Shown here in pieces: positions 41,599-64,000 of a DNA stretch of 64,000 nucleotides; the first letter of the stretch is position 1, and the number at the start of each line of letters is the position of its first letter. The DNA is from an uncultured Enterobacterales bacterium (lineage in GTDB: Bacteria > Pseudomonadota > Gammaproteobacteria > Enterobacterales > CALYQQ01): assembly GCA_945288535.1 (NCBI GenBank), contig CALYQQ010000009.1:62001-126000 (forward strand), read 5' to 3'. Below the pieces are notes generated by a model. It saw only the letters and a program-made list of their open reading frames with translations, was not told where the DNA came from and did no database searches. Made by a program: the position numbers and the translations under genes.

Positions 41599-44500
41599 TT
41601 AATATGCTGGAATGGGGAGAGTAAGATTAATATCTGTCAATACGACATCTACATGCCCGCTAATATTGAGATTTTCTGAATTATTTAAGCTATTTTTTTC
41701 AGCTTCATAATATTTACTCGAACTACCTTTACCTTCTCCTTGTAAGGTTTTTATTGGATAATGATAAGTTACCCACCCAATCTCTTTTTGACGTGTACCA
41801 TCTTGTATAGAACTATTATTAACAATTGTTTCCTGCATATTCAATTCACCTGCAGCTAAAATAGTGCTATTTGCATTATTAATCTGTGTAACATCAATAT
41901 GCATATTTTTACCAGATATAATTTCTGCAGGCACCATATTGGTTACTTTTGTCGTATAAGTAACTCTTTCATACACATATTCGTAAAATCTGTCGGTATC
42001 CTTAAACTCACCAGTTGTAGATTGTAGAATATAATTACGATGATGCTTTTTAGGATTAACAATTAAATTAACTTCATCCACAGAATATTTTTTATTTGAG
42101 TCGTATAACGAATATTCTTTAACATTTTCTTTCTTAATCTCCATTTCTTCAAATGTCAACGCATCATCAATATTATTGATCGTATTAGCCAAGACATTCA
42201 TATCATCATGAGATTCAATACGTGCAGAATGATTATTCAATGTGGTTGTATTGATATCCATCGTTCCCTGGCTAAGAAGTAAAGCACGGTTAGTATTATT
42301 AAGGATATTGGTACTGATGGTAAGTTGTTTTTTTGCCCTGAGCATTGGTGCTATTTCGGTGGAAAGAGAGGATCCACTATTATTCAATGTTTTCGAAAAA
42401 ATTGTTACTACATCACCAACTAACTGAGCCGAATCATTATTATTCAATTCATTTGACAATCGAATTTCAATAAAATCACCATTAATAAGGCCTTTATTAT
42501 TTACCGAATTACCTTTAATCAAAATATTGCTAGACTCTATTTGACCAGATTTTGCATTTTCGACCAATATATTATCTAATTTTAATGAATTTCCTGCGGA
42601 TAATTTCCCTTCATTACTAATTTGATTAACTTTAATTGATAATTGCTTCTTTGCAAAAATCTCTTCTTTATTAACAAACCGCTCCTGTAAATTAAGGTCA
42701 ATATTATTTTCAGCTAGCAATTTACCATCACCTGTTAAAATATTAGCCGAAATATCAATATTTTCAGCTTTAATAGTTGCAGCGTTATTCAACATAATAT
42801 CTGATATAATTTTCGCTAATGAACCAATTGTCATTTTCGCATATTGATTCTGCAATTTATTAGTGTTAATTGTCATCTGATTGGCATTTAATACTGCTTC
42901 TTGGTTATCAATATTACTTGCAGTAATACTAAGTTCACCTTCTGTATTCAGAGTTGTAGTATGATTATTAAGATCATCAACATCAATAATGATTCCTTTT
43001 GCAGAAGTTAAATTCGCTCCTTGATTATTTAAATTTCCGTTCGCATTAATATTAATATATTGCTGAGCAAATAAGGTAGCTGATCGATTATCAAGTTCTG
43101 TTGCTTCAATAGTAATATTTTTTTTTGCTTCAATATAACTCTCTTGATTATTTATCGTTTCTGTTGAGATCTCAATTACACCTCCAGCTTGCCACTTAGC
43201 ATTATTGTTCTCAATCAGAGGCGATTTCACGGTAATGTCTTGTTTCGCATTCAATATTGCTGATTGATTACTTAATTTTTCCTTAGAATTGATTTGAATT
43301 GAATTGTCACTGGTTATAACTGCTGACTGATTATCTATTACATGAGATATTAAGTTTACATTACCACTTGCATTAAGTTCAGCTAAGCTATTATTAATAT
43401 ACTCATCACTGCTTATTGTTAGTTCATTACCAGATACAAATTTACTTTGTTGATTATCAAGGTGGGATGCGGTTATTTCCGTATCACCACCGCTTGTTAA
43501 TACAGCGGATTTATTTGATAAATCATTTGCGGTTATATTTAGTAAACCTTCTGCCATCAACGATGAAAAATCATTATTCATTTTATCAGCATTGATCTTT
43601 ATATTACTCGTTGCATTAAGCGTAGATGATTGGTTAGTTAAGGTATCACTGGTAATTAAGATATCTTTACTTTGCCATTTTGAAGATGAACTCTCCATTT
43701 GTTTTGCATTTATGCTGATAATATCCATAGCATTTATATTTGATGACTGACTATTTAATATATCAGCCGTGATAGTAAGTTGTTGTTCAGTAGTTAATCG
43801 GCTATTTTGATTATTTACCTCACTCGCATCAATAGCAATAGATTTATCGGCACGAATATCAACATATTGATTATCAATTTTTTGATTGGCGTTTAACTTA
43901 ATATCACCTTCAGCAACCAAAAAAGCGTGTTGATTATCAATGGTACTGGCTTGTAACTGGATATTATCTGCGTTTAAAATGGCACTTTGATTGTTAATCG
44001 CTTCTTCAGTCTTAATTTGTAGCTGTGAGCCAGACAATATGCTATCAGTATTGTCAATATTATGATGAGCTGTCATTGAAAATTCTTTTTCAGCTGCTAA
44101 TATCGCATTAATATTATTGATATTTTCTGCGTTTGCTATAATTGACTGACTTATCATATGTGCAAACTTATTATCAAGTTGTATTGCATTAAGCGTAATG
44201 TCACCAGAAGTAGTAAAACTTGCATTTTGATTAGTTAAATCATCGGCCGTTAAAACGATATTGTCCTGACCTACAAACTTACTGTAACTATTATTAAGCT
44301 GCGTTGCATCGATTATAATATTTTCATCAGTCGTAATTGTTGCATATTGATTATCGAAATCTAGCGCTTTAGCAATAATATTTCCTTTGCTTTGCCATTC
44401 TGCAGAAGTATTAATTAATTGTGACGTTGCATTCGCATCAATTGTCTCTATAGCATTAAGATTAGCTTCAGTTAAATCAATTTTATCTGCACTAATTTTA

Positions 44501-47355
44501 ATATGTTGTTCACTAATAAAACTTGTCGCTTTAGCATTAACCAGACCTTTCGACTGAATATCTATGTTACCTACCGAATTAAGTTTGGCTTGTTGTATAT
44601 TTAACTCATTAATATTAAACTGAATATCCTTTCCAGAAATCATTAAAGACTCTGCAGCAGCCAATGAAGCACCTTTAATTGAAATAGAATCTATTGCTGT
44701 CAATAAGTTTTCATCTATTGAGATAGATGCTTCATTAATGTCCTGCCCCATACTTTGTTTGACTTTATCAATCGTCCAATCTGCAGTGGTCATGCCCTTT
44801 AAATATGCCAATGTATTATCGAGGTTATCTGCGACAATATTCATTGATCTTTCAGTCTGAAAGTCCCCACCTTTATTTGTAATTACTGTACCCAAAAGAT
44901 TAAGATCACCTTTTGTAGACAATATGGTATCAGTATTTTTAAGCTGGACACCATGGAGTGTTAAATCGCTATCCGTTTCAATAGAGGAACTATCATTATT
45001 GATGATAAGTGCGTTTATTGTTATTTTATCATGACTAATCACGTTTCCTTTCAAATGATTAAACTGAACACCGCTGTCAATGATAACTGGCCCATTAGCT
45101 TTTATGTTACCCGCATTCAGCACTTCCTGTGATGCTCTTATGACTAACTCATCACCGGTAGTTATTTGAGCATTAATGGCGTTAACAAATTTCTCAGTAT
45201 CAATTGCCATTTTTCCATTAGCGTTAATTATTCCATTATCAAAAATATTAACAGACTTGCCGGCAGTCAGTTTTATATCTTTTTCAGAAGTTAATGCACC
45301 TATTACAACTGAAGATTCATCTGATTCACCTATGGAAATCGCCTTTGCGGCATTGACAGTAATATTACCGACAACATTAGCATGAGTTATATTTACATCT
45401 GAATCACTATTAACTAATACATCGCCTTTGGTCGTTAATAAACCATCCGTGTTATCGAACCACCCTCCATTTGCAACAAAATTACTCTCTGTTATAAATT
45501 TAGTATTCTGATTTTTGCTACCAATAACGTTATCAAAAATAATATCGCCATTAGCCTTCAGTATCGAGGATTTATTCTCTGAGTTCTGTGATTTAATCTG
45601 TAAAACACCTTCAGTTATCAATTGTGAATTATTATTAAAGAGCGTGTTTCCAACATTAATATCAATTCCTTTCTGGGCAGTAAGTTTAGTTTGGTTATTG
45701 TATAGCAAGCCATCACCATCGGTATCATGAGTGATTAATTTAATGGATTGAGATGACGTTAACTGAACTTTATTGTTATTCACTGTACCACCAACAAAAA
45801 CAATATCTCCATTGGCTTCAATATTTGAATTATCATTCGTGAACGTTTCTTTTGCTTCAACACGATAGTTTTTAAGGGTTTTCGCTTTTATACCCGTACT
45901 ACTAATGGTTTTACCATCTATAGTAATATCATCTTTAGCATTAAATGTAGCCGAATCAAGTTCAACAAAATTACCTGAAATAGTTAATGCACTAGCACGG
46001 GTTTTACTTTTGGCTAAACTCGCATGATCCACTCCTGTGACAGTAATATCTTTAGTAGCAATATTTTTCCCATTCAGGTTAGCTTTTTTAGCGGTAACTA
46101 TAATATTACCGTTTACCTTTTTGTCTAGACCAGACTGAAGTGTACTGTTTGAAGAACTGTTAACTGTATCAGCATTAAGCTCAATATCATTTAATGCATT
46201 TATTACACCTGTATTAACAATCGTTTTATTACTGGCTAGTTTAATATTCTTGGTTATACTTTTAATTTGCTTGTCATTTTTAATATCATCGCTACTTGTT
46301 ATGCGAATATTTTCATTAGCCTGAATTCCCCCTGTATTAATAATTCTACCTTCCATTGTCAATGTGATATCACCAGTTGTTGTTTTAATTTGGCCCGCAT
46401 TATTCACACCAACGCCTTTCTCAGTACCAATTAAGTAAATTTTACCCGCATACATACCCCCTAATGCGGAAACATCAACAGCAAATTTAGGCGAATTATC
46501 ATCAGCTTTATTGTCAAACTTATCTTTATTCTCGATTGGCGAAACTGTTTCCAGGTCAGCACTTACTCTATTAACGCCGGTAATAACTTTAATATCTTTA
46601 CCATGAATACCCGCATTGACCTCTACACTACGAGCAATAATTTCGGTATAATCTTCTTTACTATTATTTAATCCCTTGCCAGTAAAAACAATTGCACCAT
46701 CCCGCACGGTATAGCCTTTTAACTGACCATCTTCTATTTGTGCACTACCTGTTGTTAATGTCGCTTTATTTGCATTAATAAAGCCACAACCATCACAGGC
46801 AATTCCCGATGGATTGGCAATAATCACTTGTGCCTTTTTACCTGCAACTTCTATATAACCATTAAGTTTACTCGGATCCCGAGAATTAACTTCATTAAGG
46901 ATAATTTGGGCCTCTCCTCCCGCTAAATTAGTATTACCATCAATACGACCAGCCAATTCGGTTTTTATTGATTGCTGAGAGTTATTAAGAATGGCGCCTT
47001 TTTGGTCCACATCAAATTGTGTATATTTGTTATGAGAAAAACCATTTTTATCAGGGGCTTGGATATTAACTATCGTAGGACCTTTATCTCCTCTAATAAT
47101 TTGCGGTTGTTGATGTGCCGCTGCGCTATTATCAGCAACAATATTTGCTACTGCCGCATCCATAATCATCACATTACCTAAGGCCATACCTAGTAACAAA
47201 CATAGTGGTTTCAATTTAGCTACTACACTTTTTGATACTACATGTGGGGTTGACGACGTTGTTGTTATACAGTTATTTCTGTTAGCCAATTCAGAGACAA
47301 CCATCAATTGACCTCTTTCACGATTAAAGATAATACGATAGCAATGTTTGTTCAT
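41599..47355 (-). CDS. Two-partner secretion exoprotein (TpsA), filamentous hemagglutinin/CdiA type
   Basis: A 1918-aa secreted protein. It has an extended signal peptide region (ESPR: NKHCYRIIFNRERGQLMVVSE), then a TPS domain (about 75-300) with the NPSGIACDGCGFIN secretion motif typical of ShlA/CdiA relatives. Residues 300 to about 1750 are a long beta-helix of some 20-residue repeats of the form LDNQ-A-L-A-x-I, rich in N, I and T. It ends abruptly at INLTLPIPAY. In full-length CdiA/FHA proteins a LP-x segment like this leads into YLIETDPRF-type sequence, further repeats and a C-terminal toxin. None follows here, so it is probably a C-terminal truncation. Co-transcribed with the TpsB gene upstream. 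Confidence 0.9.
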   Translation of the reverse strand: MNKHCYRIIFNRERGQLMVVSELANRNNCITTTSSTPHVVSKSVVAKLKPLCLLLGMALGNVMIMDAAVANIVADNSAAAHQQPQIIRGDKGPTIVNIQAPDKNGFSHNKYTQFDVDQKGAILNNSQQSIKTELAGRIDGNTNLAGGEAQIILNEVNSRDPSKLNGYIEVAGKKAQVIIANPSGIACDGCGFINANKATLTTGSAQIEDGQLKGYTVRDGAIVFTGKGLNNSKEDYTEIIARSVEVNAGIHGKDIKVITGVNRVSADLETVSPIENKDKFDNKADDNSPKFAVDVSALGGMYAGKIYLIGTEKGVGVNNAGQIKTTTGDITLTMEGRIINTGGIQANENIRITSSDDIKNDKQIKSITKNIKLASNKTIVNTGVINALNDIELNADTVNSSSNSTLQSGLDKKVNGNIIVTAKKANLNGKNIATKDITVTGVDHASLAKSKTRASALTISGNFVELDSATFNAKDDITIDGKTISSTGIKAKTLKNYRVEAKETFTNDNSNIEANGDIVFVGGTVNNNKVQLTSSQSIKLITHDTDGDGLLYNNQTKLTAQKGIDINVGNTLFNNNSQLITEGVLQIKSQNSENKSSILKANGDIIFDNVIGSKNQNTKFITESNFVANGGWFDNTDGLLTTKGDVLVNSDSDVNITHANVVGNITVNAAKAISIGESDESSVVIGALTSEKDIKLTAGKSVNIFDNGIINANGKMAIDTEKFVNAINAQITTGDELVIRASQEVLNAGNIKANGPVIIDSGVQFNHLKGNVISHDKITINALIINNDSSSIETDSDLTLHGVQLKNTDTILSTKGDLNLLGTVITNKGGDFQTERSMNIVADNLDNTLAYLKGMTTADWTIDKVKQSMGQDINEASISIDENLLTAIDSISIKGASLAAAESLMISGKDIQFNINELNIQQAKLNSVGNIDIQSKGLVNAKATSFISEQHIKISADKIDLTEANLNAIETIDANATSQLINTSAEWQSKGNIIAKALDFDNQYATITTDENIIIDATQLNNSYSKFVGQDNIVLTADDLTNQNASFTTSGDITLNAIQLDNKFAHMISQSIIANAENINNINAILAAEKEFSMTAHHNIDNTDSILSGSQLQIKTEEAINNQSAILNADNIQLQASTIDNQHAFLVAEGDIKLNANQKIDNQYVDIRADKSIAIDASEVNNQNSRLTTEQQLTITADILNSQSSNINAMDIISINAKQMESSSSKWQSKDILITSDTLTNQSSTLNATSNIKINADKMNNDFSSLMAEGLLNITANDLSNKSAVLTSGGDTEITASHLDNQQSKFVSGNELTISSDEYINNSLAELNASGNVNLISHVIDNQSAVITSDNSIQINSKEKLSNQSAILNAKQDITVKSPLIENNNAKWQAGGVIEISTETINNQESYIEAKKNITIEATELDNRSATLFAQQYININANGNLNNQGANLTSAKGIIIDVDDLNNHTTTLNTEGELSITASNIDNQEAVLNANQMTINTNKLQNQYAKMTIGSLAKIISDIMLNNAATIKAENIDISANILTGDGKLLAENNIDLNLQERFVNKEEIFAKKQLSIKVNQISNEGKLSAGNSLKLDNILVENAKSGQIESSNILIKGNSVNNKGLINGDFIEIRLSNELNNNDSAQLVGDVVTIFSKTLNNSGSSLSTEIAPMLRAKKQLTISTNILNNTNRALLLSQGTMDINTTTLNNHSARIESHDDMNVLANTINNIDDALTFEEMEIKKENVKEYSLYDSNKKYSVDEVNLIVNPKKHHRNYILQSTTGEFKDTDRFYEYVYERVTYTTKVTNMVPAEIISGKNMHIDVTQINNANSTILAAGELNMQETIVNNSSIQDGTRQKEIGWVTYHYPIKTLQGEGKGSSSKYYEAEKNSLNNSENLNISGHVDVVLTDINLTLPIPAY

Positions 47356-47413
47356 TTTTTACTCCTTTCCGATGGACATAGATAATGTCACTTTGCGCTA
47401 ATAAGGATAAAAT

Positions 47414-49123
47414 TTAATACTCCCAGATCAGATTAAAACCCGTTGCGGCTCTACTTGTCTTAAAACTGGCTGGTTTTGATAGTGAACGACCAACAAACAA
47501 GTCATATACGAGATTAATTTTAGGGATCCCCCCTTTGATGCCAACAACCCCTCCTGCTAAATGTTTACCTGCCAAATCATAACTACGATGGCTACCATTA
47601 ACTTCGCCATAATCAATGCCAAGATAGATCTGCTGTTTATTAATTGGTGTAAACCAGGTCATATCATTGCGTATTGTCCAGCCATTATCCGCACTTAGAT
47701 TTAATTCACCGTCAAAACCACGAACAGACCAACGACTACCAATAGCAAAACGTTCTTGTGACGTTAATGGGGTTTTAGCCATCTGACGTTGATATTGACC
47801 GTAATAATTAAAAGATTGGCCAAATAAACTAAAAGGTACGGATACTGCGCTAGAGAAGTGAATAATTTTGCTCAATGCTGTTGCATCATTAATAAATTCT
47901 TCTTGTGCGGGTTGTGCGCCAAACCACCGTGTTCCTCGTTGATAATCGAGACGGCTATCAAAAGTGAAATGTTCAAAATAGTGGCGATACGTCAGACCTA
48001 ATTTCCAAAATGTGGTATCCCGTCGCTGCACACCTATCTCATAATCATTAATATAATTTTGTGAACTTCTATGTCCTATTTCATAAAAGACTGAGCCTTT
48101 TATCGCTGAATCACGATAAAGGATCCGACTTAAACGTAATGCTTGATTACGAATACGACCTTTATATTGATAATTAACAATATTGCCGGCAATTGTTTCA
48201 TTATATTTGTAACCACTTAATGCAGCACTTAGGAAAAAATAACCAAGAGGAATAGTGTAATTTGCTGTAAAATTATTAGAGCCTTTTTCATTTCGTCCTT
48301 TGATGTCATGACCGCCGGAAATATAAAACATATCACTTAATGAGGTAGGATTATCTAAATAAAATGTTAATCCGCCTTGGTATTTCCCTGTACTTTTTGT
48401 TCCTGAATCATCAAATGAAGCAAGTAATCGCCAAAAACGTGTTTGTTGCCAAGATACTTTAATGTCGCTTTCACCTTCTTTATCGGCAGGTGATATTGCA
48501 ATATCGGCTTGAGCAGTAGGAATACGCTGTAAATTTTCTAACCCTTGTTCTAAATCACGTAAATTAAGTAAATCCCCCTGGGATATAGGCACACTATTCA
48601 ATAGAGTTAAGTAATTACTACTATTTTGACTAAGTTGAATGTGATTAACTTTCCCTGCGACTAATTCCAATTCTAGGACACCAGACGTCAAGTCTTGCTC
48701 AGAAATTTGAATACGAGAAGTAATATAACCATGTTCAATGAGCCGATTTTGGAGAACATGTATTAATTGTTTGATACCACGCCCCCCTAAACACCGATTC
48801 ACACCTTTATTTGCGATTGACTGTAACCGTAACCAGAGTGGTACTGCGCGTAAATTATGTATGACTATTTTATTAACTAGAAAGCAAGGTGATTCTACTG
48901 GAAATTTACTAAGATCACTCTTTTCCGTCTTGACCTGGAAACGAACATCAGGTGTTTGTGGTGATAATTGTTGTTCGCGCGCTTTTTGTTGTTGTTCTTG
49001 ATGAATTTGTTGCTGTTCGTTAATAGGCTTTGATTGAGCTATTACTGTACGTACCATTAAACATACTGTAAGTACAATAATATAAATTAATTTATTTTCG
49101 TTATTAATTAGCATTAAGATCAT
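47414..49123 (-). CDS. Two-partner secretion transporter (TpsB), ShlB/FhaC type
   Basis: A 569-aa outer membrane protein of the Omp85/TpsB family that exports the adjacent exoprotein. An N-terminal signal (about 12-30) is followed by a Q-rich stretch, two POTRA domains (about 70-225, including the conserved QNRLIEHGYITSRI) and a 16-strand beta-barrel, with VRGFDGE as the VRGY/F motif of the L6 loop and a terminal aromatic (IWEY). The gene is 58 nt upstream of tpsA on the same strand. It looks intact. Confidence 0.93.
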   Translation of the reverse strand: MILMLINNENKLIYIIVLTVCLMVRTVIAQSKPINEQQQIHQEQQQKAREQQLSPQTPDVRFQVKTEKSDLSKFPVESPCFLVNKIVIHNLRAVPLWLRLQSIANKGVNRCLGGRGIKQLIHVLQNRLIEHGYITSRIQISEQDLTSGVLELELVAGKVNHIQLSQNSSNYLTLLNSVPISQGDLLNLRDLEQGLENLQRIPTAQADIAISPADKEGESDIKVSWQQTRFWRLLASFDDSGTKSTGKYQGGLTFYLDNPTSLSDMFYISGGHDIKGRNEKGSNNFTANYTIPLGYFFLSAALSGYKYNETIAGNIVNYQYKGRIRNQALRLSRILYRDSAIKGSVFYEIGHRSSQNYINDYEIGVQRRDTTFWKLGLTYRHYFEHFTFDSRLDYQRGTRWFGAQPAQEEFINDATALSKIIHFSSAVSVPFSLFGQSFNYYGQYQRQMAKTPLTSQERFAIGSRWSVRGFDGELNLSADNGWTIRNDMTWFTPINKQQIYLGIDYGEVNGSHRSYDLAGKHLAGGVVGIKGGIPKINLVYDLFVGRSLSKPASFKTSRAATGFNLIWEY

Positions 49124-54344: not shown

Positions 54345-56480
54345 CTATTGTTTGTCAGAAATTAATAAAGCAGATAAATCAATAATCCTGTCTGCGCTAT
54401 CAATTGTTGATTGTCGGTGAGCAACAATAATACGGGTGATCTTTAATGCATTAATTGAAGCATTTATGATCATTTCATTATCAACGTCAAGATGACTTGT
54501 GGCTTCATCTAAAAAGAGTATTGCAGGACGACGATAAAGTGCTCTAGCCAATAACAAACGTTGTTTTTGTCCGCCGGATAGACTTCCCCCCAATTCACTC
54601 AATAATGTTTCATAACCCATTGCCAATTGCATGATTTCGCTGTGTAAATTAACTAATTTGCTACAGTGAATGATCCGTTCGCTGTCATGATGTTCATCAA
54701 AGCTGGCAATATTATCTGCAATAGATCCAGCAAAAAGTTTATCTTCTTGTAAAACACATGCAATATATCGACGATAATTATTTAATCCCAATTGATGAAT
54801 ATCACATCCATTAAGTAAAACACTTCCTCGTGTCGGTACTAATAAACCAGCCATAATCTTAAGTAATGTTGTTTTCCCTATACCAGAAGGACCTATAATA
54901 GCGACGCTTTCGCCAGAATGAATAACAAAATGTAAACGCCGAAATAGTGCTGGTGTAAAACTATCGTATTGAAACATTAAATTTTCGACAGTAAGTGTTG
55001 CTTGTTGATGAATATCTACTATAGAGCTGGTGGGTTTATTTTCTTCAGGATCTGTAAGTACAATGTCTGCTAGACGCTCACTATGTAATGATAAAATACG
55101 CAATTGCAATGCTAAATTAATTAAGTTAGCCGCACGATCTGAAAATTGTCCTCGATAAGCATTAAAAGCAACAAACATTCCTAGTGTCATATTTTCACTT
55201 ATGATCATTACAGCACCTAACCAAAGAACAATAATTTGGCCACATGCACCGATTAACGCATTTGTTCCACTAAACATCATATCGAGTTTTTGTTGTCGAA
55301 TTGACGCATTAGCAGCATCAATATTTAAATTAAACCACTGACCGCCACGTTGCGGTAATAACCCCAGTGCTTTTACAGTGGCTATTCCATAAAGGGTTTC
55401 CATAAAATGAGAATTAGCACTTGCATTTTTAACAATAAACTCTTCTGAAAGTTGTCGATAATAGGGATAAGTAAATAAGCGTAGCAATAGATAAGCGCAG
55501 GTAAAACCTAGTACAACCCAAATTAACCAATTACCGTATAGGATCATCATACATAACAATCCAATTAACATGATAAGATCAATTATACCACTGATAATAT
55601 TTCCTGTTAGTGTTGTCCTAATATTATCTAATGATAAAAATCGTGATTGTATATCACCTAATTTTCTTTTTTCGAAATAAACTAAAGGCAATTTTAATAA
55701 ATGACTAAATAGACTTGATTTCCATTGCAAACTGATCAATGTTGTCATCATTAATGCTGTCCATGAACGCAACATGCTTGCAAAAGTACGAAATAAAATA
55801 AAAAACAGCAATCCGATACAAATCAGTGACAATAAATCATTATCAGCAGCATGTATTACATGATCCATAACTAATTGCATACCAACCGGTATTAATAAAC
55901 TAATAAATTCAATCAATAGTGATAAGCAGAATATTTTCGAAAGTGCTGTCCATAATCCTTGTACATTCTTTAACATAGACCAAAGGTTCAGCTGCTGACG
56001 TTGTTTAATGGGCTGAAAAGCAGTCGTTGGCCATAATTCTAATGCGACACCGGTAAAATGTTGTGATAACTGATTTAAAGATAATCGTTTTTTACCGGAT
56101 GCGGGATCATTAATAATACCTCGTTTACCTGAGATCTTAACTAAAACAACAAAATGATTCATATTCCAATGTAAAATACAAGGCAATTTCAGTTGAGTAA
56201 GTTCCTCCATATCTAGCGATAAAGCTCTTGTTTGCATATTCAAACATTCAGCACATCGTATAATATCCTGTAATTTTGCACCTTGTGCTGAAAAGTTAAA
56301 TTGCTGACGCAAATAAAATAGATCAATATCCATACCATAATAACGGCAGATCATAGCCAGTGATGCTAAACCGCATTCAGAGGCTTCTGTTTGAATTGTT
56401 AATGGTACACTATGCCAGAAAGAAAAATCTAACATCGATAGTAATGATGAGAGGTTATTTGGCTTCATAAATTGGGCCAC
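54345..56480 (-). CDS. Peptidase C39-containing ABC transporter (CvaB-type), copy 1
   Basis: A 711-aa inner membrane exporter that cuts double-glycine leaders and pumps the peptide out. The N-terminal C39 domain has its catalytic Cys in QTEASECGLASLAM (about 36), His in LHWNMNHFVVL and Asp in INDPASG. Six membrane helices span about 170-440. The ATPase has Walker A GPSGIGKTT (about 533), signature LSGGQKQRLLLARAL and Walker B ILFLDEATSHLD. It overlaps the HlyD gene by 26 nt; a start at the ATG at 56468 is also possible. It is fed by the precursor at 57880-58113. Confidence 0.93.
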   Translation of the reverse strand: MAQFMKPNNLSSLLSMLDFSFWHSVPLTIQTEASECGLASLAMICRYYGMDIDLFYLRQQFNFSAQGAKLQDIIRCAECLNMQTRALSLDMEELTQLKLPCILHWNMNHFVVLVKISGKRGIINDPASGKKRLSLNQLSQHFTGVALELWPTTAFQPIKQRQQLNLWSMLKNVQGLWTALSKIFCLSLLIEFISLLIPVGMQLVMDHVIHAADNDLLSLICIGLLFFILFRTFASMLRSWTALMMTTLISLQWKSSLFSHLLKLPLVYFEKRKLGDIQSRFLSLDNIRTTLTGNIISGIIDLIMLIGLLCMMILYGNWLIWVVLGFTCAYLLLRLFTYPYYRQLSEEFIVKNASANSHFMETLYGIATVKALGLLPQRGGQWFNLNIDAANASIRQQKLDMMFSGTNALIGACGQIIVLWLGAVMIISENMTLGMFVAFNAYRGQFSDRAANLINLALQLRILSLHSERLADIVLTDPEENKPTSSIVDIHQQATLTVENLMFQYDSFTPALFRRLHFVIHSGESVAIIGPSGIGKTTLLKIMAGLLVPTRGSVLLNGCDIHQLGLNNYRRYIACVLQEDKLFAGSIADNIASFDEHHDSERIIHCSKLVNLHSEIMQLAMGYETLLSELGGSLSGGQKQRLLLARALYRRPAILFLDEATSHLDVDNEMIINASINALKITRIIVAHRQSTIDSADRIIDLSALLISDKQ

Positions 56481-57747
56481 TTATGCTCTTACTTATCCGA
56501 TAAAAAGGGGTAAACATCCATTGATATAATGGCCTATTATCCAAAAAAAGGGTTGATTGCAATGTCATACCACTTGATAGATTTAAAGGCTTATCACTAT
56601 CAATTAACCGGGGAATCGATAAACTGATAATTGCTTTATAATAATTCATATTTGTTTGTCCATTTACACCATGTGGCGCACTTCCATAGTGATTAAGTTC
56701 TTGTTTTGAAACAGGAACAGATGAAACAGAAATAATTTTACCGGCAAACTGGCCAAACTTTTCATAAGGAAAGGCGTCATAACGAATATTAATATCATCT
56801 CCTGCATTTACGTAGGCGATACTGGTATTTGGCAACCATAATACCGCATAATAATGATTATCTTTTTGAGGCAAAATTTGCAACAAACTATCGCCTATAT
56901 TGACCATTTGTCCTACCGTTACACTTAATGACTCTACTTTTCCTTCACTCGGCGAGCTAATCACAATAGAATCATTTGCTGTAATTTCTAATAATTGTTT
57001 TTGCAATTCATAACGTCGATATTCATGTTGTAAAAGCTGATCACCAAATTTTAATTCCAATGCGGTTAATTCACTTGTTAAATTAGTAATTTGCAATTCT
57101 TCTTGAATTAGCTGGGAATAGAAATTTTGATGTGTATTTTGTTGCTGCTGATATAAGTACTGCTGATAATTAAAATCATCTTTTCTCACCAACCCTTTTT
57201 TTAAAAAAGTTTTATATTCATTAATATTTTTACTTAATCGTTTTAATTCATTAGATGAATGATTAAGGAGTTGTTGTGTTTTTTGATACATCTCCTGGTG
57301 CTTATTTAATTGAATTTTAGTATTTTCTAATGCATTACGTTTGTTTTTCTCCATTAGTTCGATCAAATTTTCAACTTGGCTAAGTTGATTTTTAATAACA
57401 TTTACCATATTTTGACTGACGTTACCTTGCTGTGTAATACGACTCACGTCGATCCGATAAAGTGGTGTTCCTTGTTTTATAATATCTCCAATACTCACTA
57501 ATAATTCAGTAATATATCCTTGCTGAGGTGCATAGACATTTATTGGTTGATAATAAGTAATAACTTCGCCTTGTACCTGGCTACGACGATTATAATGAGT
57601 AAGTAAAATTAAACTTATAAGTCCAATAACAAAAGATAAGGCAATACCGTTAATAACATAACTTGGAAAAAACGTAGTAATCAAAGCGGTACCACTCCAG
57701 CGTTGATTATTATATTGAAAAACATCCCTAAATGGCGATTTATCCAT
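56455..57747 (-). CDS. HlyD-family adaptor (CvaA-type), copy 1
   Basis: A 430-aa membrane fusion protein like CvaA of colicin V. One N-terminal helix (about 30-50), a lipoyl half (VYAPQQGYITELLVSIGD), a long coiled coil (about 115-240) rich in Q, N and L, then the second lipoyl half (ISSPSEGKVESLSVTVGQMVNIGDSLLQI) and a C-terminal domain ending close to PFYRISKS. It bridges the ABC exporter to an outer membrane channel such as TolC. Its 3' end overlaps the ABC gene. It is paralogous to the second adaptor at 61309-62616. Confidence 0.92.
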   Translation of the reverse strand: MDKSPFRDVFQYNNQRWSGTALITTFFPSYVINGIALSFVIGLISLILLTHYNRRSQVQGEVITYYQPINVYAPQQGYITELLVSIGDIIKQGTPLYRIDVSRITQQGNVSQNMVNVIKNQLSQVENLIELMEKNKRNALENTKIQLNKHQEMYQKTQQLLNHSSNELKRLSKNINEYKTFLKKGLVRKDDFNYQQYLYQQQQNTHQNFYSQLIQEELQITNLTSELTALELKFGDQLLQHEYRRYELQKQLLEITANDSIVISSPSEGKVESLSVTVGQMVNIGDSLLQILPQKDNHYYAVLWLPNTSIAYVNAGDDINIRYDAFPYEKFGQFAGKIISVSSVPVSKQELNHYGSAPHGVNGQTNMNYYKAIISLSIPRLIDSDKPLNLSSGMTLQSTLFLDNRPLYQWMFTPFYRISKSISGPIYEAK

Positions 57748-57774
57748 AATAATTACATAGTGTATTTATTAAAC

Positions 57775-57818
57775 AAAAAGGCTTATTAATCTAATAATGC
57801 AATTAAATAAGCCTTTTT
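57775..57818 (-). terminator. Strong hairpin between precursor 1 and its exporter
   Basis: Perfect 13-bp stem AAAAAGGCTTATT (57775-57787) with AATAAGCCTTTTT (57806-57818). On the minus strand it ends in GCCTTTTTGTTT. It lies 60 nt after the precursor stop and 28 nt before the adaptor start, so it should reduce read-through into the exporter, the usual way to keep precursor RNA in excess. Confidence 0.85.
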
Positions 57819-57879
57819 ACCAAAAAAGATAAATTATTTATTGTCGATCTATATAAACTTATTTAACCAATAAATTATC

Positions 57880-58113
57880 TTATTTAAATAGACTTACATG
57901 AATACCAATTGGCTTTATTGAAATATCTAAAGCTGGATCAGCGGTATTTATAGAAATATTACAATCTAAATTATCCAAGAAAGAACAAAAATCAGGTAAT
58001 GCTATCGGATTAACTATTTTAGGTTGATCATTTATTGGATAGGTTTCAACTAAATCTAAAGTTAAACAAGCACCTGATACAGTATTCATTTCTAATTCAT
58101 TTAATTCTCTCAT
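57880..58113 (-). CDS. ColV-type bacteriocin/microcin precursor
   Basis: A 77-aa peptide with a classic 15-residue double-glycine-type leader, MRELNELEMNTVSGA, matching the layout of the colicin V leader (L at -12, E at -8, V at -4, G-A at -2/-1). The core would be 62 residues with three cysteines (C16, C43, C51), acidic overall, with a hydrophobic tail ending SLFK. A very strong SD (GGGAGG) precedes the ATG. It sits upstream of the CvaA/CvaB-like pair on the same strand. No homologous mature bacteriocin is recognised, and no immunity gene is visible nearby. Antibacterial function is inference. Confidence 0.82.
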   Translation of the reverse strand: MRELNELEMNTVSGACLTLDLVETYPINDQPKIVNPIALPDFCSFLDNLDCNISINTADPALDISIKPIGIHVSLFK

Positions 58114-59216: not shown

Positions 59217-61322
59217 TTATTTATTTAAAGATAATGTAACCACTCTATCAGCAGATGCTATTGTTGACTGTCTGTGGGCAATAATAACTCTAGTAATAGA
59301 TAAAGCTGAAATGGCAGAGTTAATTATATGCTCATTGTCACTATCTAGATGACTTGTTGCTTCATCCATAAATAAAATGCCAGGTTGGCGATAAAGTGCT
59401 CTTGCAATAAGTAAACGTTGTTTTTGCCCACCCGATAGCGTTCCACCTAACTCACTTAGTAATGTATTATATTTCATTGGAAATTTCATAATATCCTGAT
59501 GAATATTACTCAATACAGCGCATTTTTCTATCAACTCCTGGTCCCAACTAGCAGAAAATCCGGCTATATTTTCTGCTATTGTTCCAGAAAATAATTTGTC
59601 ATCTTGCAATACGCAGGCAATATTATTACGGTAGTTATTTAATCCTAATGTTCTAATATCAATGCCATTAAATATTATTACTCCTTTCATAGGCTGTAAT
59701 AATCCTGACATTAGTTTCATTAGCGTTGTTTTCCCTACACCGGATGGACCAATAATGGCAATACTTTCACCAGCATTAATCTGCAAACTAAAATCTGCTA
59801 TTATAGGTTTGCTATAGGTATCATATGAAAATGAAATATTTTTGACCTCTAATGAAGCACCCTTATTATCTAAATTTATTTTAGGTAATAATTCTTTTTG
59901 TTCTTCTTGCTGTGTTAAAACAATGTCTGAAAGACGTTCATTATGTATTGATAAAAGTCTAAACTGCAATAATACATCAATTAGCATGCTTGCTCTTTCA
60001 GCAAACTGTCCCCGATAAGCATTAAAAGCAATAAACATTCCTATAGTCATAGCGTCATTTATAACTTGGTTTGTCGCTAGCCACAAAATAGTAATTTGCT
60101 CAATTGTTGAAATGAAAACATTAGTGCCTTGAAAGAAGGTATCAAATTTTTCAATCTTAATTCTGGAGTTTATCGCATCGATATTAAGATTTAACCAATG
60201 CTGGGTTCTGTTTTCCGTATTACCTAGTGATTTAAGCGTACTAATACCATATAGTGTTTCCATAAAGTGAGAATTTGCTATCGCTGATTTAACAATCTGT
60301 TCATGGGAAATTTGTGAATAGTAGTTATAAGTTACTACTCGTATAACTATATAAATCAACGTAAAACAAACGACTATCCAAAGTAGCCATCCTCCATATA
60401 ACAACATCATTATAAACACACAAATAATCATAACGCTATCGATGATACCTTTAACTAAAGTATCAGTGAATGTACTACGAATTAAATCTATTGAATTAAA
60501 TCGAGATTGAATATCACCGAGTTTTCTTTTTTCAAAATAAGCAAGAGGTAATTTCATTAAATAATCAAACAATCCCGTTTTCCACTGTACATCAATAATT
60601 GCACTCATCGTGATTGATAACCATGAACGAATTAATCCTGTAAAAGATCGAAAAATAGAAAAAGATATTAATCCTAAACAAATCAATAGTAATAAATCAT
60701 TATCTTTAGAAATAACGACATGATCCATCACTAATTGCGTGCCAATAGGTATAAGCAGATTTAAAATTTCAACAATAGTTGAAAGAATAAATAATTTAAG
60801 TAAAAATTTATTTATACCTTTTATATTCTTAAAAAGTTCGCTAACTTTAATTCTATCTTTCTCATTTTTCTTTATAAAGTGACTGTCGGGCCAGAATTCT
60901 AAAGCAACACCAGTGAAATGAGATGACATTTCTTTCAAGTTTAAAACTCGATGTCCAAATGCAGGATCATGTATAATAAATCGGTTACGCTTAACTTTTA
61001 CTAAAACAACAAAATGATTCATATTCCAATGTAAAATGCAAGGTAAATTTAGTTGAGATAATTCATCCATATCTAGGCTTAATATCCGAGCTTTTAGATT
61101 TAACTGATGTCCAATCTCTATTAGTGAAGGAATAGTTGTCCCATTAGTGGATATATTAACTCGTTGACGTAGTGTGAGAAGATCAATTTTTAATCCATAA
61201 TAATAAGATATCATAACAAGGCAGGCCAGACCGCACTCAGCAACTTCACTTTGAAGAACTTGTGGTATCTTTCGCATAATTCCTAAATCTAATTTATTAA
61301 CAAATTCTTCAAGCATCCTCAT
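59217..61322 (-). CDS. Peptidase C39-containing ABC transporter (CvaB-type), copy 2
   Basis: A 701-aa paralogue of copy 1, with all active parts: C39 Cys in QSEVAECGLACLVM (about 30), His in LHWNMNHFVVL, Asp in IHDPAFG; six helices at about 165-435; Walker A GPSGVGKTT, signature LSGGQKQRLLIARAL and Walker B ILFMDEATSHLD. It overlaps the HlyD gene by 14 nt; M3 (61316) is an alternative start. It lies downstream of the dynobactin-like precursor and its maturase, so it is the likely exporter for that peptide. Confidence 0.93.
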   Translation of the reverse strand: MRMLEEFVNKLDLGIMRKIPQVLQSEVAECGLACLVMISYYYGLKIDLLTLRQRVNISTNGTTIPSLIEIGHQLNLKARILSLDMDELSQLNLPCILHWNMNHFVVLVKVKRNRFIIHDPAFGHRVLNLKEMSSHFTGVALEFWPDSHFIKKNEKDRIKVSELFKNIKGINKFLLKLFILSTIVEILNLLIPIGTQLVMDHVVISKDNDLLLLICLGLISFSIFRSFTGLIRSWLSITMSAIIDVQWKTGLFDYLMKLPLAYFEKRKLGDIQSRFNSIDLIRSTFTDTLVKGIIDSVMIICVFIMMLLYGGWLLWIVVCFTLIYIVIRVVTYNYYSQISHEQIVKSAIANSHFMETLYGISTLKSLGNTENRTQHWLNLNIDAINSRIKIEKFDTFFQGTNVFISTIEQITILWLATNQVINDAMTIGMFIAFNAYRGQFAERASMLIDVLLQFRLLSIHNERLSDIVLTQQEEQKELLPKINLDNKGASLEVKNISFSYDTYSKPIIADFSLQINAGESIAIIGPSGVGKTTLMKLMSGLLQPMKGVIIFNGIDIRTLGLNNYRNNIACVLQDDKLFSGTIAENIAGFSASWDQELIEKCAVLSNIHQDIMKFPMKYNTLLSELGGTLSGGQKQRLLIARALYRQPGILFMDEATSHLDSDNEHIINSAISALSITRVIIAHRQSTIASADRVVTLSLNK

Positions 61323-62616
61323 CTATCTCCCGCGGTAAGGCTAAACTCTTTTTAATCATGTAAAAAGGAGTAAAAATCCATTCATATAAAGGTCTAGTCT
61401 CAAGAAAAACAGTGGTTTCGGCTTTCATCCCATTGACAATAAACAGGTTTTTATCTTGATATTTGAAGCTAGAATCTGCTAATGACGCAGTTACCTTATA
61501 ATAAGACTCTTGCGGTGAGGGGGCTAACATAAGAGGCGAATTATTATAACTCGATAATTCTTGTTTCGACGCTGAAACAGAGGAAATTGCAATAATACGA
61601 CCAACAAATTGACCAAATTTTTGATAAGGAAAAGCATCATAACGTATATTGATTAAATCATTAACTTTAATATAAGGGATACTGTTATTAGGTAACCAAA
61701 ATACTAATTGGTATTCACGATTTATACCTAAGCTAAGTTGGGCAAGACTGTCGCCAATATTAACCATCTGCCCAGGTGTCACACTTAATGATTCAATTTT
61801 TCCATCATTTGGAGCAGTAATAAACATCGAATGCTCTAACTCCAAATTAGCTAACTTTATTGTTAATTCAGCTTGCTGATATCTGTACTCATCTATTTGA
61901 TTATCAAAATCAATAGGCGCCGTAATTAACTCCGTTTTTAATTTTTCTACTGCTAAATCTAACTGTATTTTTTGAGTTAATAGATTCTGAAATACACTTT
62001 GTTGTTGATATAATAAATTATTTTGGTAAACAAATTGTTCTTTGGTAATTAATCTTCTTTTGTAATAACCATGATATGATGCCGCATTTTTTTTCAAGAG
62101 ATCCATGCCATCTTTAGCTTCATTTAATAAACTATCTGTAACAAGCTTAGATTGAACATATTGCTCTAACTGCAATTTAAGATTATTTATTGTTTCTTCT
62201 TTATTTTTCAGTAACTTAGCAATAATCGAGTCAACTATTTCTTTTTGATCTCTAACTAAGTTATGTGAACTAATATTTACATTTCCCGAGTCAGTTATTT
62301 TGCTAAAATCAATTTTATATAATTTATCTCCTTTTTTCACTATATCAGCCGGTTTGACATATAGCTCAGAAATAATACCTGTTTTAGTTGAAAAGAGTGT
62401 CACAGGTTGAGGTGATGTAACAACTTCTCCGATTACTATTATTCTTCTTGTATAATTAGCGAAAAATATAAGTGTTACGATTAAAAGAAATATTATTGAA
62501 GAAAAAAAAATAATGACAAATAAAGGAATGTTAGGTGTGATTAAAGCTTGTCCTTTCCATTTGTTATTTCTATTATTAATAAATTTTTCTCTAAAAATAG
62601 ATTCCCTATTCTTCAT
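61309..62616 (-). CDS. HlyD-family adaptor (CvaA-type), copy 2
   Basis: A 435-aa adaptor paralogous to copy 1: helix at about 30-52, lipoyl half LFSTKTGIISELYVKPADIVKKGD, a long Lys- and Leu-rich coiled coil (about 115-250), second lipoyl half TAPNDGKIESLSVTPGQMVNIGDSLAQL and a conserved C-terminal part (RPLYEWIFTPFYMIKKSL). It couples the second C39 transporter to an outer membrane channel. The start lacks a strong SD. It lies 115 nt after the dynobactin-like gene, with a terminator hairpin between. Confidence 0.92.
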   Translation of the reverse strand: MKNRESIFREKFINNRNNKWKGQALITPNIPLFVIIFFSSIIFLLIVTLIFFANYTRRIIVIGEVVTSPQPVTLFSTKTGIISELYVKPADIVKKGDKLYKIDFSKITDSGNVNISSHNLVRDQKEIVDSIIAKLLKNKEETINNLKLQLEQYVQSKLVTDSLLNEAKDGMDLLKKNAASYHGYYKRRLITKEQFVYQNNLLYQQQSVFQNLLTQKIQLDLAVEKLKTELITAPIDFDNQIDEYRYQQAELTIKLANLELEHSMFITAPNDGKIESLSVTPGQMVNIGDSLAQLSLGINREYQLVFWLPNNSIPYIKVNDLINIRYDAFPYQKFGQFVGRIIAISSVSASKQELSSYNNSPLMLAPSPQESYYKVTASLADSSFKYQDKNLFIVNGMKAETTVFLETRPLYEWIFTPFYMIKKSLALPREIDEDA

Positions 62617-62662
62617 AATTATTTATCTCAAATAATATAATTTAGTTTTGCAGAATTACTAA

Positions 62663-62695
62663 AATCTCATATCTCTATTAATGAGATATGAGATT
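62663..62695 (-). terminator. Hairpin between the dynobactin-like gene and its exporter
   Basis: Perfect 13-bp stem AATCTCATATCTC/GAGATATGAGATT with a 7-nt loop; on the minus strand followed by TTAGTAATT. It occupies the same place as the hairpin in cassette 1, so both precursors are insulated from their exporters. Confidence 0.75.
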
Positions 62696-62731
62696 AAAAC
62701 TAATTAATACACTAATTATAAAAGAAAGAGA

Positions 62732-62908
62732 TTATCTAAAAGAATATCTATATACATTACCGTTCCATCTTGCTCTTATTAAATTTTGGCTTACTGCTTT
62801 ATTAAGTTGATCCGATTTGATAACACTTCCTTCTTCTGCTCCTATACTACCTCCAACACAATCAATAAGAGCACTATTCCACATCTTATCATTGGTTATA
62901 TCTTTCAT
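62732..62908 (-). CDS. Dynobactin-like RiPP precursor (putative BamA inhibitor)
   Basis: A 58-aa peptide absent from ordinary gene calls. A GGAG SD lies 7 nt before the ATG, and it starts 12 nt after the radical SAM stop. The C terminus reads WNGNVYRYSFR. Dynobactin A (Photorhabdus), as I remember it, is WNSNVHSYRF with a Trp1-Asn4 C-C ring and a His6-Tyr8 ring. Here W, N, N, V, Y and F match at positions 1, 2, 4, 5, 8 and 10; the ring-2 His is Tyr and one Arg is added after the Phe. The leader has a double-glycine site (IDCVGG, residues 15-20) that a C39 transporter could cut. DarA of darobactin is also 58 aa. Function is inferred from core similarity and context. Confidence 0.85.
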   Translation of the reverse strand: MKDITNDKMWNSALIDCVGGSIGAEEGSVIKSDQLNKAVSQNLIRARWNGNVYRYSFR

Positions 62909-62920
62909 AAGATCTCCAGT

Positions 62921-64000
62921 TTAAGTGTTATTAATGGGAATTGCTAAATCTGAATTTAGATAAGCAATTGTATTTCCTAGGCCATCTTTCATATGCTCAG
63001 GAAAAGGAGAACCAGCAACAATTCCTTTTGTCGCTAGTTTTTTTTCTACATGTTCATACATTTTATAAAGACTTGGGCAATAATAATCCTTATGTTCTTG
63101 ATCATTATTAAAAAACTTATAAGATCTAGCTTGACATCCACCATGACAAATATATTGCCATTTACAATGAGTACATGAATATGTTGGTTGTCTCGTTCTA
63201 AATTTTCGTGCAACTGGTGAATGCATTATTTTATCAAGTGATTGCTGATTTAAATTGCCATAAATTAATGAAGAAATACCAGATAAACTTGCACAAGGAT
63301 AGATGTCGCCTAAAGGATCGGTTGAGCAGTTTGCATTACCACATTGTGATAAACCTTCACAATCGGCCGCTCTTCCTAAAAGGATACTTTTTGTCTTATT
63401 AATAAAATCAGCAATATAAATATATTTATCTTTTTTAGCATCAAACCAAAGATTATAAAGTTTTATCCAAGGTTCTGCATACTCATCTGGCATTAAACCT
63501 AATTCATTATATTCATTTATAGCATTACCAGATTTATTTAATGGTATGATATTAAATGGAATATGATTCTCAACCATAAAATCATATATTTCTTCAACAT
63601 AATCTTTATTTGCTTTACTAATTACTAATGCGCTACCACAAATTAAACCGATATTATGTAATTTCTTAATTGATGCTATTACTCTATCAAAACTTCCATT
63701 GCCTTTTTTATCTATTCTATTTTTATCATGGTATAATTTTGGACCATCAATAGAAATACTAACAAGAAATTTATTATTTAATAAAAAATCTGCCCATTTA
63801 TTATTTATTAAAGTTCCATTAGTCTGTAAAATATTTGTATAATGCATATCACCTGAATATTTATTTTGTAACTCTATAACTTTCTTGTAAAAGTCTAAAC
63901 CTGCCAGCATAGGCTCCCCCCCATGCCATATAAAATCAATGCTTGTGAATTCTTTTACTTTTTTTGTATAAGAAAATGTTTCCAATATTGTTTTTTCTAA
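62921..64000 (-). CDS. Radical SAM/SPASM peptide maturase, 5' end beyond window
   Basis: The frame is open to the window edge, so the start and the CxxxCxxC [4Fe-4S] motif are outside. The visible part has WHGGEP (SAM-binding GGEP), TNGTLI, SIDGP and a C-terminal SPASM domain: CEGLSQCGNANCSTDPLGDIYPC, then CTHCKWQYICHGGC and YYC, enough to bind two auxiliary clusters. This is the architecture of maturases such as DarE and XyeB that cross-link aromatic residues. The adjacent downstream gene ends in a dynobactin-like core, so this enzyme most likely forms its rings. A TTG at 63985 should not be taken as the start. Confidence 0.92.
   Translation of the reverse strand, partial: LEKTILETFSYTKKVKEFTSIDFIWHGGEPMLAGLDFYKKVIELQNKYSGDMHYTNILQTNGTLINNKWADFLLNNKFLVSISIDGPKLYHDKNRIDKKGNGSFDRVIASIKKLHNIGLICGSALVISKANKDYVEEIYDFMVENHIPFNIIPLNKSGNAINEYNELGLMPDEYAEPWIKLYNLWFDAKKDKYIYIADFINKTKSILLGRAADCEGLSQCGNANCSTDPLGDIYPCASLSGISSLIYGNLNQQSLDKIMHSPVARKFRTRQPTYSCTHCKWQYICHGGCQARSYKFFNNDQEHKDYYCPSLYKMYEHVEKKLATKGIVAGSPFPEHMKDGLGNTIAYLNSDLAIPINNT

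Follow-up and report, generated by a model that had tools for sequence, protein, structure and literature searches.

The window, by which we mean the whole 64,000-nt stretch of DNA that was analysed, carries an intact dynobactin-family cluster consisting of a maturase, a precursor peptide and a CvaAB-like exporter. By gene content the locus is an ordinary dynobactin member; by chemistry it is a natural variant, because the residue that makes the second ring of dynobactin A has been replaced. The following genes and features were located (window coordinates):

62921..64000, past the window end to 64102, minus strand: dynobactin-type radical SAM/SPASM maturase (NF041298)
62914..62917, minus strand: Shine-Dalgarno sequence GGAG of the precursor gene, five bases before its ATG (from the sequence)
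62732..62908, minus strand: precursor peptide gene, 58 aa, leader plus core WNGNVYRYSFR (NF041295 match and conserved leader)
62849..62854, minus strand: leader Gly19-Gly20 (DCVGG), which we infer to be a candidate C39 peptidase cleavage site
62735..62767, minus strand: codons of the core WNGNVYRYSFR (alignment with the Photorhabdus, Xenorhabdus and Flavihumibacter cores)
62663..62695, minus strand: 13-bp inverted repeat with a 7-nt loop in the precursor-exporter interval (RNA fold z-score)
61309..62616, minus strand: HlyD/CvaA-type periplasmic adaptor, 435 aa (PF13437 and others)
59217..61322, minus strand: CvaB-type peptidase-containing ABC exporter, 701 aa (PF03412 Peptidase_C39, PF00664, PF00005)
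60882..61268, minus strand: C39 peptidase domain with catalytic-type Cys (AECG) and His (NHFVV) kept (PF03412 residues 19-147)

Precursor and maturase genes

The initial annotation had pointed to a 58-aa gene ending in WNGNVYRYSFR, and we confirmed this open reading frame at 62732-62908 (full translation MKDITNDKMWNSALIDCVGGSIGAEEGSVIKSDQLNKAVSQNLIRARWNGNVYRYSFR; C-terminal end RWNGNVYRYSFR). As had also been claimed, it follows a SPASM radical SAM gene, whose stop codon lies exactly 12 nt before the precursor start, and it has its own Shine-Dalgarno sequence. The precursor scores 51.9 bits against NF041295 dynobact_RiPP ('dynobactin A family peptide antibiotic'), for which the cut-off is 40. 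The E-values with this curated model, 6.8e-14 for the protein and 5.4e-13 in a six-frame scan where the precursor was the sole match over the cut-off in 395 genomes of the order, exclude a chance origin of the match. The core is not the sole source of the match, as the leader by itself still reaches 29 bits. Within the window, the C-terminus W..N...Y.F is found in the precursor alone among 161 ORFs of 30-120 aa. A search of plasmids returned no relatives of the precursor, and viral contigs gave no match.

The maturase is complete in the assembly, where the contig of the window measures 129.5 kb; it has 393 aa (L009:10922-12103) and the N-terminal start MLFVNVIKPTHRCNLACKYCYNED. Once the gene is read beyond the window, the CxxxCxxC motif is present at its 5' end. 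NF041298 rSAM_mat_DynA, with a cut-off of 450, gives 496.8 bits for the window-truncated enzyme and 569.8 bits for the complete one. C13-C17-C20 and the SPASM cysteines (GDIYPC, C-x2-C-x5-C-x3-C, YYC) are invariant in six homologues. Identity of the enzyme is 63, 63 and 56% with the Photorhabdus maturases described below, 57% with that of Xenorhabdus and 50% with that of Flavihumibacter, against 25-28% with other SPASM enzymes. In a tree with four outgroup SPASM enzymes, the six dynobactin-type maturases form one clade with a support of 100/99. This clade contains the maturases that accompany the dynobactin A core WNSNVHSYRF, so the enzyme does not fall in an unrelated maturase family.

Other identities of the maturase were rejected. 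While the dynobactin model is passed, the DarE and XyeB models give scores far below their cut-offs (125.7 bits for NF038005, cut-off 650; 88.5 bits for TIGR04496, cut-off 450), and the core is WNGNVYRYSFR rather than the WNWxKxF of DarE substrates. An anaerobic sulfatase maturase was rejected as well (233.8 bits for TIGR03942, cut-off 349.45). The nearest solved structures by sequence are those of anaerobic sulfatase maturase (4k36), and the predicted structure of the maturase, with a mean pLDDT of 65, is too weak for modelling substrate binding. Plasmid-borne matches all have less than 60% identity and are mostly annotated as sulfatase maturases. Of 369 genomes of the class, 1 carries a maturase over the NF041298 cut-off, which is the host itself, as does 1 of 299 genomes of the Flavihumibacter family, F. 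petaseus itself, and none was found in 198 genomes of the family of Xenorhabdus kozodoii.

Both genes pass curated cut-offs (NF041295, NF041298), which bears out the assignment to the dynobactin family made in the initial annotation. Its putative new antibiotic stands as a variant of dynobactin; the claim does not extend to a new family, as NCBI models already catalogue it. We refrain from naming a new family because these models cover both genes and automatic annotation would be expected to name them. An earlier published listing of cores with Tyr at position 6 is possible.

Related clusters and export

To compare the locus with its relatives, we used reference clusters from several sources. 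A genome-collection scan of named genomes gave those of X. kozodoii (L029) and Flavihumibacter petaseus (L028); the scan patterns were steered by four made-up rows beside the true maturase, and matches were confirmed against the true sequence only. A genus search added a second Xenorhabdus (L060). A LuxC search led to Photorhabdus genomes, and a dynobactin cluster was found in 3 of 14 genomes of this genus (L071, L072, L073). The assignment of these three to Photorhabdus, made from LuxC and the WNSNVHSYRF core, is almost certainly right.

The core of dynobactin A is WNSNVHSYRF (PMC13067283), and all three Photorhabdus clusters encode exactly this core. The window core agrees with it at W1, N2, N4, V5, Y8 and F10, the 6 of 10 positions counted in the initial annotation. 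The Xenorhabdus cores are WDGNIYKYGF and WDGNIYKYSF and the Flavihumibacter core is WSGNIYRYNFR. Trp1, Asn4, Tyr8 and Phe10 are identical in all seven precursors. The window, Xenorhabdus and Flavihumibacter cores have Gly3, Tyr6 and a basic residue 7 (W-x-G-N-[VI]-Y-[RK]-Y-x-F), whereas the Photorhabdus cores have Ser3, His6, Ser7 and Arg9 instead. Tyr6 is no chance mutation, since three distant hosts retain it along with Gly3 and the basic residue 7.

The Photorhabdus clusters share with the window the maturase family, the order of maturase and precursor, the W1/N4 pair of ring one, Y8 and F10, and the leader motif WNxAL[IVL]DC, which is also common to the Xenorhabdus precursors. In two of the three, the exporter lies on the same branch as that of the window. 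Unlike the window precursor, the Photorhabdus precursors have no residue after Phe10 and lack Gly-Gly in all three leaders, and two of the exporters have Ser for the C39 Cys that the window exporter has. DUF2975 membrane proteins lie near Photorhabdus dynobactin genes (L071:8356-8937 and L073:8107-8652), where a role in immunity or transport is possible; the window cluster has none.

Like the window, the two Xenorhabdus clusters have a Tyr6/Gly3 core, a DCVGG leader and neighbouring HlyD and C39 exporter genes; they differ in being interrupted, in an extra 155-aa membrane protein and in the lack of a C-terminal Arg. In X. kozodoii, stops lie within the maturase (L029:7001-8214). In the second Xenorhabdus (L060:8725-15010), a transposase-like gene stands between maturase and precursor and the exporter is shortened. 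Of the gammaproteobacterial Tyr6 clusters compared, that of the window alone is undamaged.

F. petaseus, a member of the Bacteroidota, shares Tyr6, Gly3 and Arg11 with the window, and its maturase scores 616.5 bits, over the cut-off. Its precursor differs in its length of 134 aa: the leader is long and for the most part dissimilar, and a follower of some 30 aa comes after the core. This precursor (L028:8148-8552) directly follows the maturase and is missed by NF041295 (13.8 bits, cut-off 40). No exporter was seen adjoining the two genes.

More distantly, the darobactin (DarE) and XyeB triceptide clusters resemble that of the window in their SPASM radical SAM enzymes and in cyclophanes, predicted for the window, on Trp-containing cores. 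The target of darobactin is BamA, as it is for dynobactin.

Adaptor and exporter of the window are both most similar to their counterparts in a Photorhabdus dynobactin cluster, with 53% identity for the adaptor and 64% for the exporter (branch support of the exporter 98/98). The best plasmid-borne CvaB-like match of the exporter reaches 58%. Across four clusters, leader and peptidase vary together: the C39 cysteine is kept with a DCVGG leader in the window and X. kozodoii, and is replaced by Ser with a DCVGK leader in two Photorhabdus clusters. This pairing fits Gly-Gly cutting during export in the window cluster and X. kozodoii. Between precursor and exporter, the RNA fold z-score is -4.2 over 62625-62732; a terminator scan did not list the stem-loop at 62663-62695, which may be an attenuator or terminator that dampens transcription into the exporter.

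The second ring and the proposed product

In dynobactin A, ring one is a Trp1-Asn4 C-C link and ring two a His6-Tyr8 C-N link (PMC13067283, PMC11002830). The initial annotation rightly matched W1, N4 and Y8 as ring residues and overlooked that the cross-linking His6 has become Tyr; it was also silent on the meaning of the extra C-terminal Arg. Tested for the ring-two residues of dynobactin A, the window core has Tyr8 and has Tyr in place of His6. Since Tyr6 offers no imidazole nitrogen, the His-Tyr C-N ring of dynobactin is impossible in this peptide, and its ring two must use another bond, if it is closed at all. From the aligned residues, W1 and N4 are predicted to form ring 1 and Y6 and Y8 ring 2, followed by F10 and the extra R11.

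We probed the family model with synthetic chimeras in which only position 6 of an otherwise fixed peptide was varied. NF041295 gave 80.8 bits with His, 78.6 with Tyr, 76.9 with Phe and 73.2 with Ala, a cost of 2.2 bits from His to Tyr and of 7.6 bits from His to Ala. The model therefore seems to have been built on Tyr, or at least on aromatic residues, at this position. The His6/Tyr8 criterion for ring two defines dynobactin A and not the wider NCBI family.

Chemistry suited to Tyr6 is known. The radical SAM enzymes YxdB and YhhB join Tyr C3 to a beta-carbon, and ScaB, given a substrate with Tyr in place of His, forms a bond from Tyr C3 to the beta-carbon of Ala at i+2 (PMC11002830). We judge it fairly probable that the window cluster makes a BamA inhibitor of the dynobactin type, in which Trp1 and Asn4 form one ring and a C-C bond between Tyr6 and Tyr8 closes the other, and which the CvaAB-like system exports; its rings, processing, activity and target are what we infer from the genes. 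In this scheme the leader, with its WNxAL.DC motif, would offer the radical SAM/SPASM enzyme the core WNGNVYRYSFR. The first bond made by the enzyme would be that of dynobactin A, from Trp1 to the Asn4 beta-carbon, and the second would run from Tyr6 to the Tyr8 beta-carbon. Ring two would most likely be a three-residue C-C cyclophane formed from the Tyr6 ring carbon ortho to the hydroxyl. With two cross-links (loss of 4 H), the calculated [M+H]+ of the core is 1301.5698 as WNGNVYRYSF and 1457.6709 as WNGNVYRYSFR. The CvaAB-like exporter would move the peptide out, with the leader probably cut at Gly-Gly, and other proteases would trim the exported peptide to the core, Arg11 being kept or removed. 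The product would then act on competing Gram-negative bacteria by binding the BamA lateral gate, mimicking a beta-signal strand, a target suggested by family membership and the conserved Tyr8 and Phe10. If left untrimmed, Arg11 would cover the C-terminal Phe, which counts against this explanation.

Ring two might also not form at all. The product would then be monocyclic, with Tyr6 and Tyr8 open beyond the Trp1-Asn4 ring, a strand mimic with weaker BamA binding or another outer-membrane target. The ring-two chemistry known from dynobactin needs the His nitrogen missing in the window core (PMC11002830), and natural monocyclic relatives occur among darobactin-like clusters (PMC9055067). Yet every Tyr6 core, in three hosts, keeps both Tyr6 and Tyr8, where drift would be expected of a free loop, and SPASM-made Tyr-to-beta-carbon bonds have precedent (PMC11002830), which leaves a monocyclic product rather unlikely. 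We regard as improbable an ether in ring two, from the Tyr6 hydroxyl oxygen to the beta-carbon of Tyr8 (C-O), of the same mass as the C-C ring. DarE makes aromatic-aliphatic ether links, but takes their oxygen from water instead of a Tyr hydroxyl (PMC9055067). Among heteroatoms, oxygen comes closest to the role of the His nitrogen, but known Tyr triceptide links are C-C (PMC11002830), and bridging i to i+2 through the para oxygen should cause strain. Very improbable is a defunct or non-antibiotic cluster, of relic genes or a signalling peptide, to which the damage in both Xenorhabdus relatives and the want of an evident dedicated immunity gene might point, because none of the four window genes, for maturase, precursor, adaptor and exporter, is interrupted or shortened, and no cluster-binding cysteine is missing.

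Returning to the C-C ring, we suggest tentatively that the Tyr6 dynobactins of Gammaproteobacteria and Bacteroidota could be a distinct class with a Tyr6-Tyr8 C-C ring, maybe the older form from which the His6 C-N type of Photorhabdus was derived. Since Tyr6 occurs in three hosts, the most divergent among them, an older Tyr6 form is plausible. The tree does not tell the relative age of Tyr6 and His6, because branching inside the six-maturase clade is poorly separated and a clade of the His6 enzymes is not rejected (AU p = 0.31). Tyr6 maturases are not grouped in the tree, and the chemistry of the window maturase on Tyr6 cannot be read from phylogeny because the enzyme is closest to His6 maturases (63%). 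If such a class is real, the substrate residue would decide which of the two bonds this one maturase family makes.

As a lead against Gram-negative pathogens, dynobactin A is limited by outer-membrane entry (PMC13067283). A natural variant without the His-Tyr C-N ring shows which features of the scaffold evolution keeps; in this one, the positive charge has moved to position 7 and a C-terminal Arg has perhaps been added. With it one can also test directly if the choice between C-N and C-C bonds within a single radical SAM family is set by the substrate residue. That such peptides exist in a further phylum is suggested by the relative in Flavihumibacter, whose precursor escapes the family model.

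Host background and neighbouring loci

The host lies outside Photorhabdus and Xenorhabdus, in agreement with the proposal of a natural variant from a different lineage. Its genome measures 2.5 Mb, with 32.7% GC in the window; no 16S was found in the assembly, and the genomes searched included no other member of its family. In Photorhabdus and Xenorhabdus the clusters are AT-rich islands, with maturases of 31-34% GC and flanks of about 44%, and the P. australis cluster has 34% GC (PMC11481567). In the window and Flavihumibacter the GC content of the maturase is nearer that of the surroundings. A spread of the cluster from a low-GC lineage such as that of the host is possible.

The host BamA is 68% identical to that of E. 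coli. We compared it at darobactin and dynobactin resistance sites (PMC10476194, PMC10135246). It equals the E. coli protein at G429, T434, E435, G443, Q445, A705, P782, G807 and T809, and Met for Leu501 is the sole difference among the sites compared. With this match at nearly all of them, BamA was rejected as a self-resistance gene and an altered BamA is no evident self-protection. That self-protection is left unexplained if the target is BamA counts against our preferred reading of the product.

Past the window end, at L009:12249-13577 on the plus strand (64248-65576 if the window numbering is continued), lies a divergent 442-aa secreted protein with HEQFH...WIEE and a weak likeness to peptidase family M1 (E = 0.019). 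It is at most a conceivable candidate for the trimming protease.

A second export locus is present on the minus strand at window 54345-58113. It encodes a 77-aa peptide with a double-glycine-type leader (MRELNELEMNTVSGA; 57880-58113), its own HlyD (56455-57747) and a C39 ABC exporter (54345-56480) that is 55% identical to the dynobactin-cluster exporter. The peptide has no match in Pfam or NCBIfam, and its locus looks like that of a class II microcin. Also on the minus strand, at window 41599-49123, a 1918-aa protein with a long N-terminal extension has a 569-aa partner upstream, and the two read like a two-partner secretion pair.
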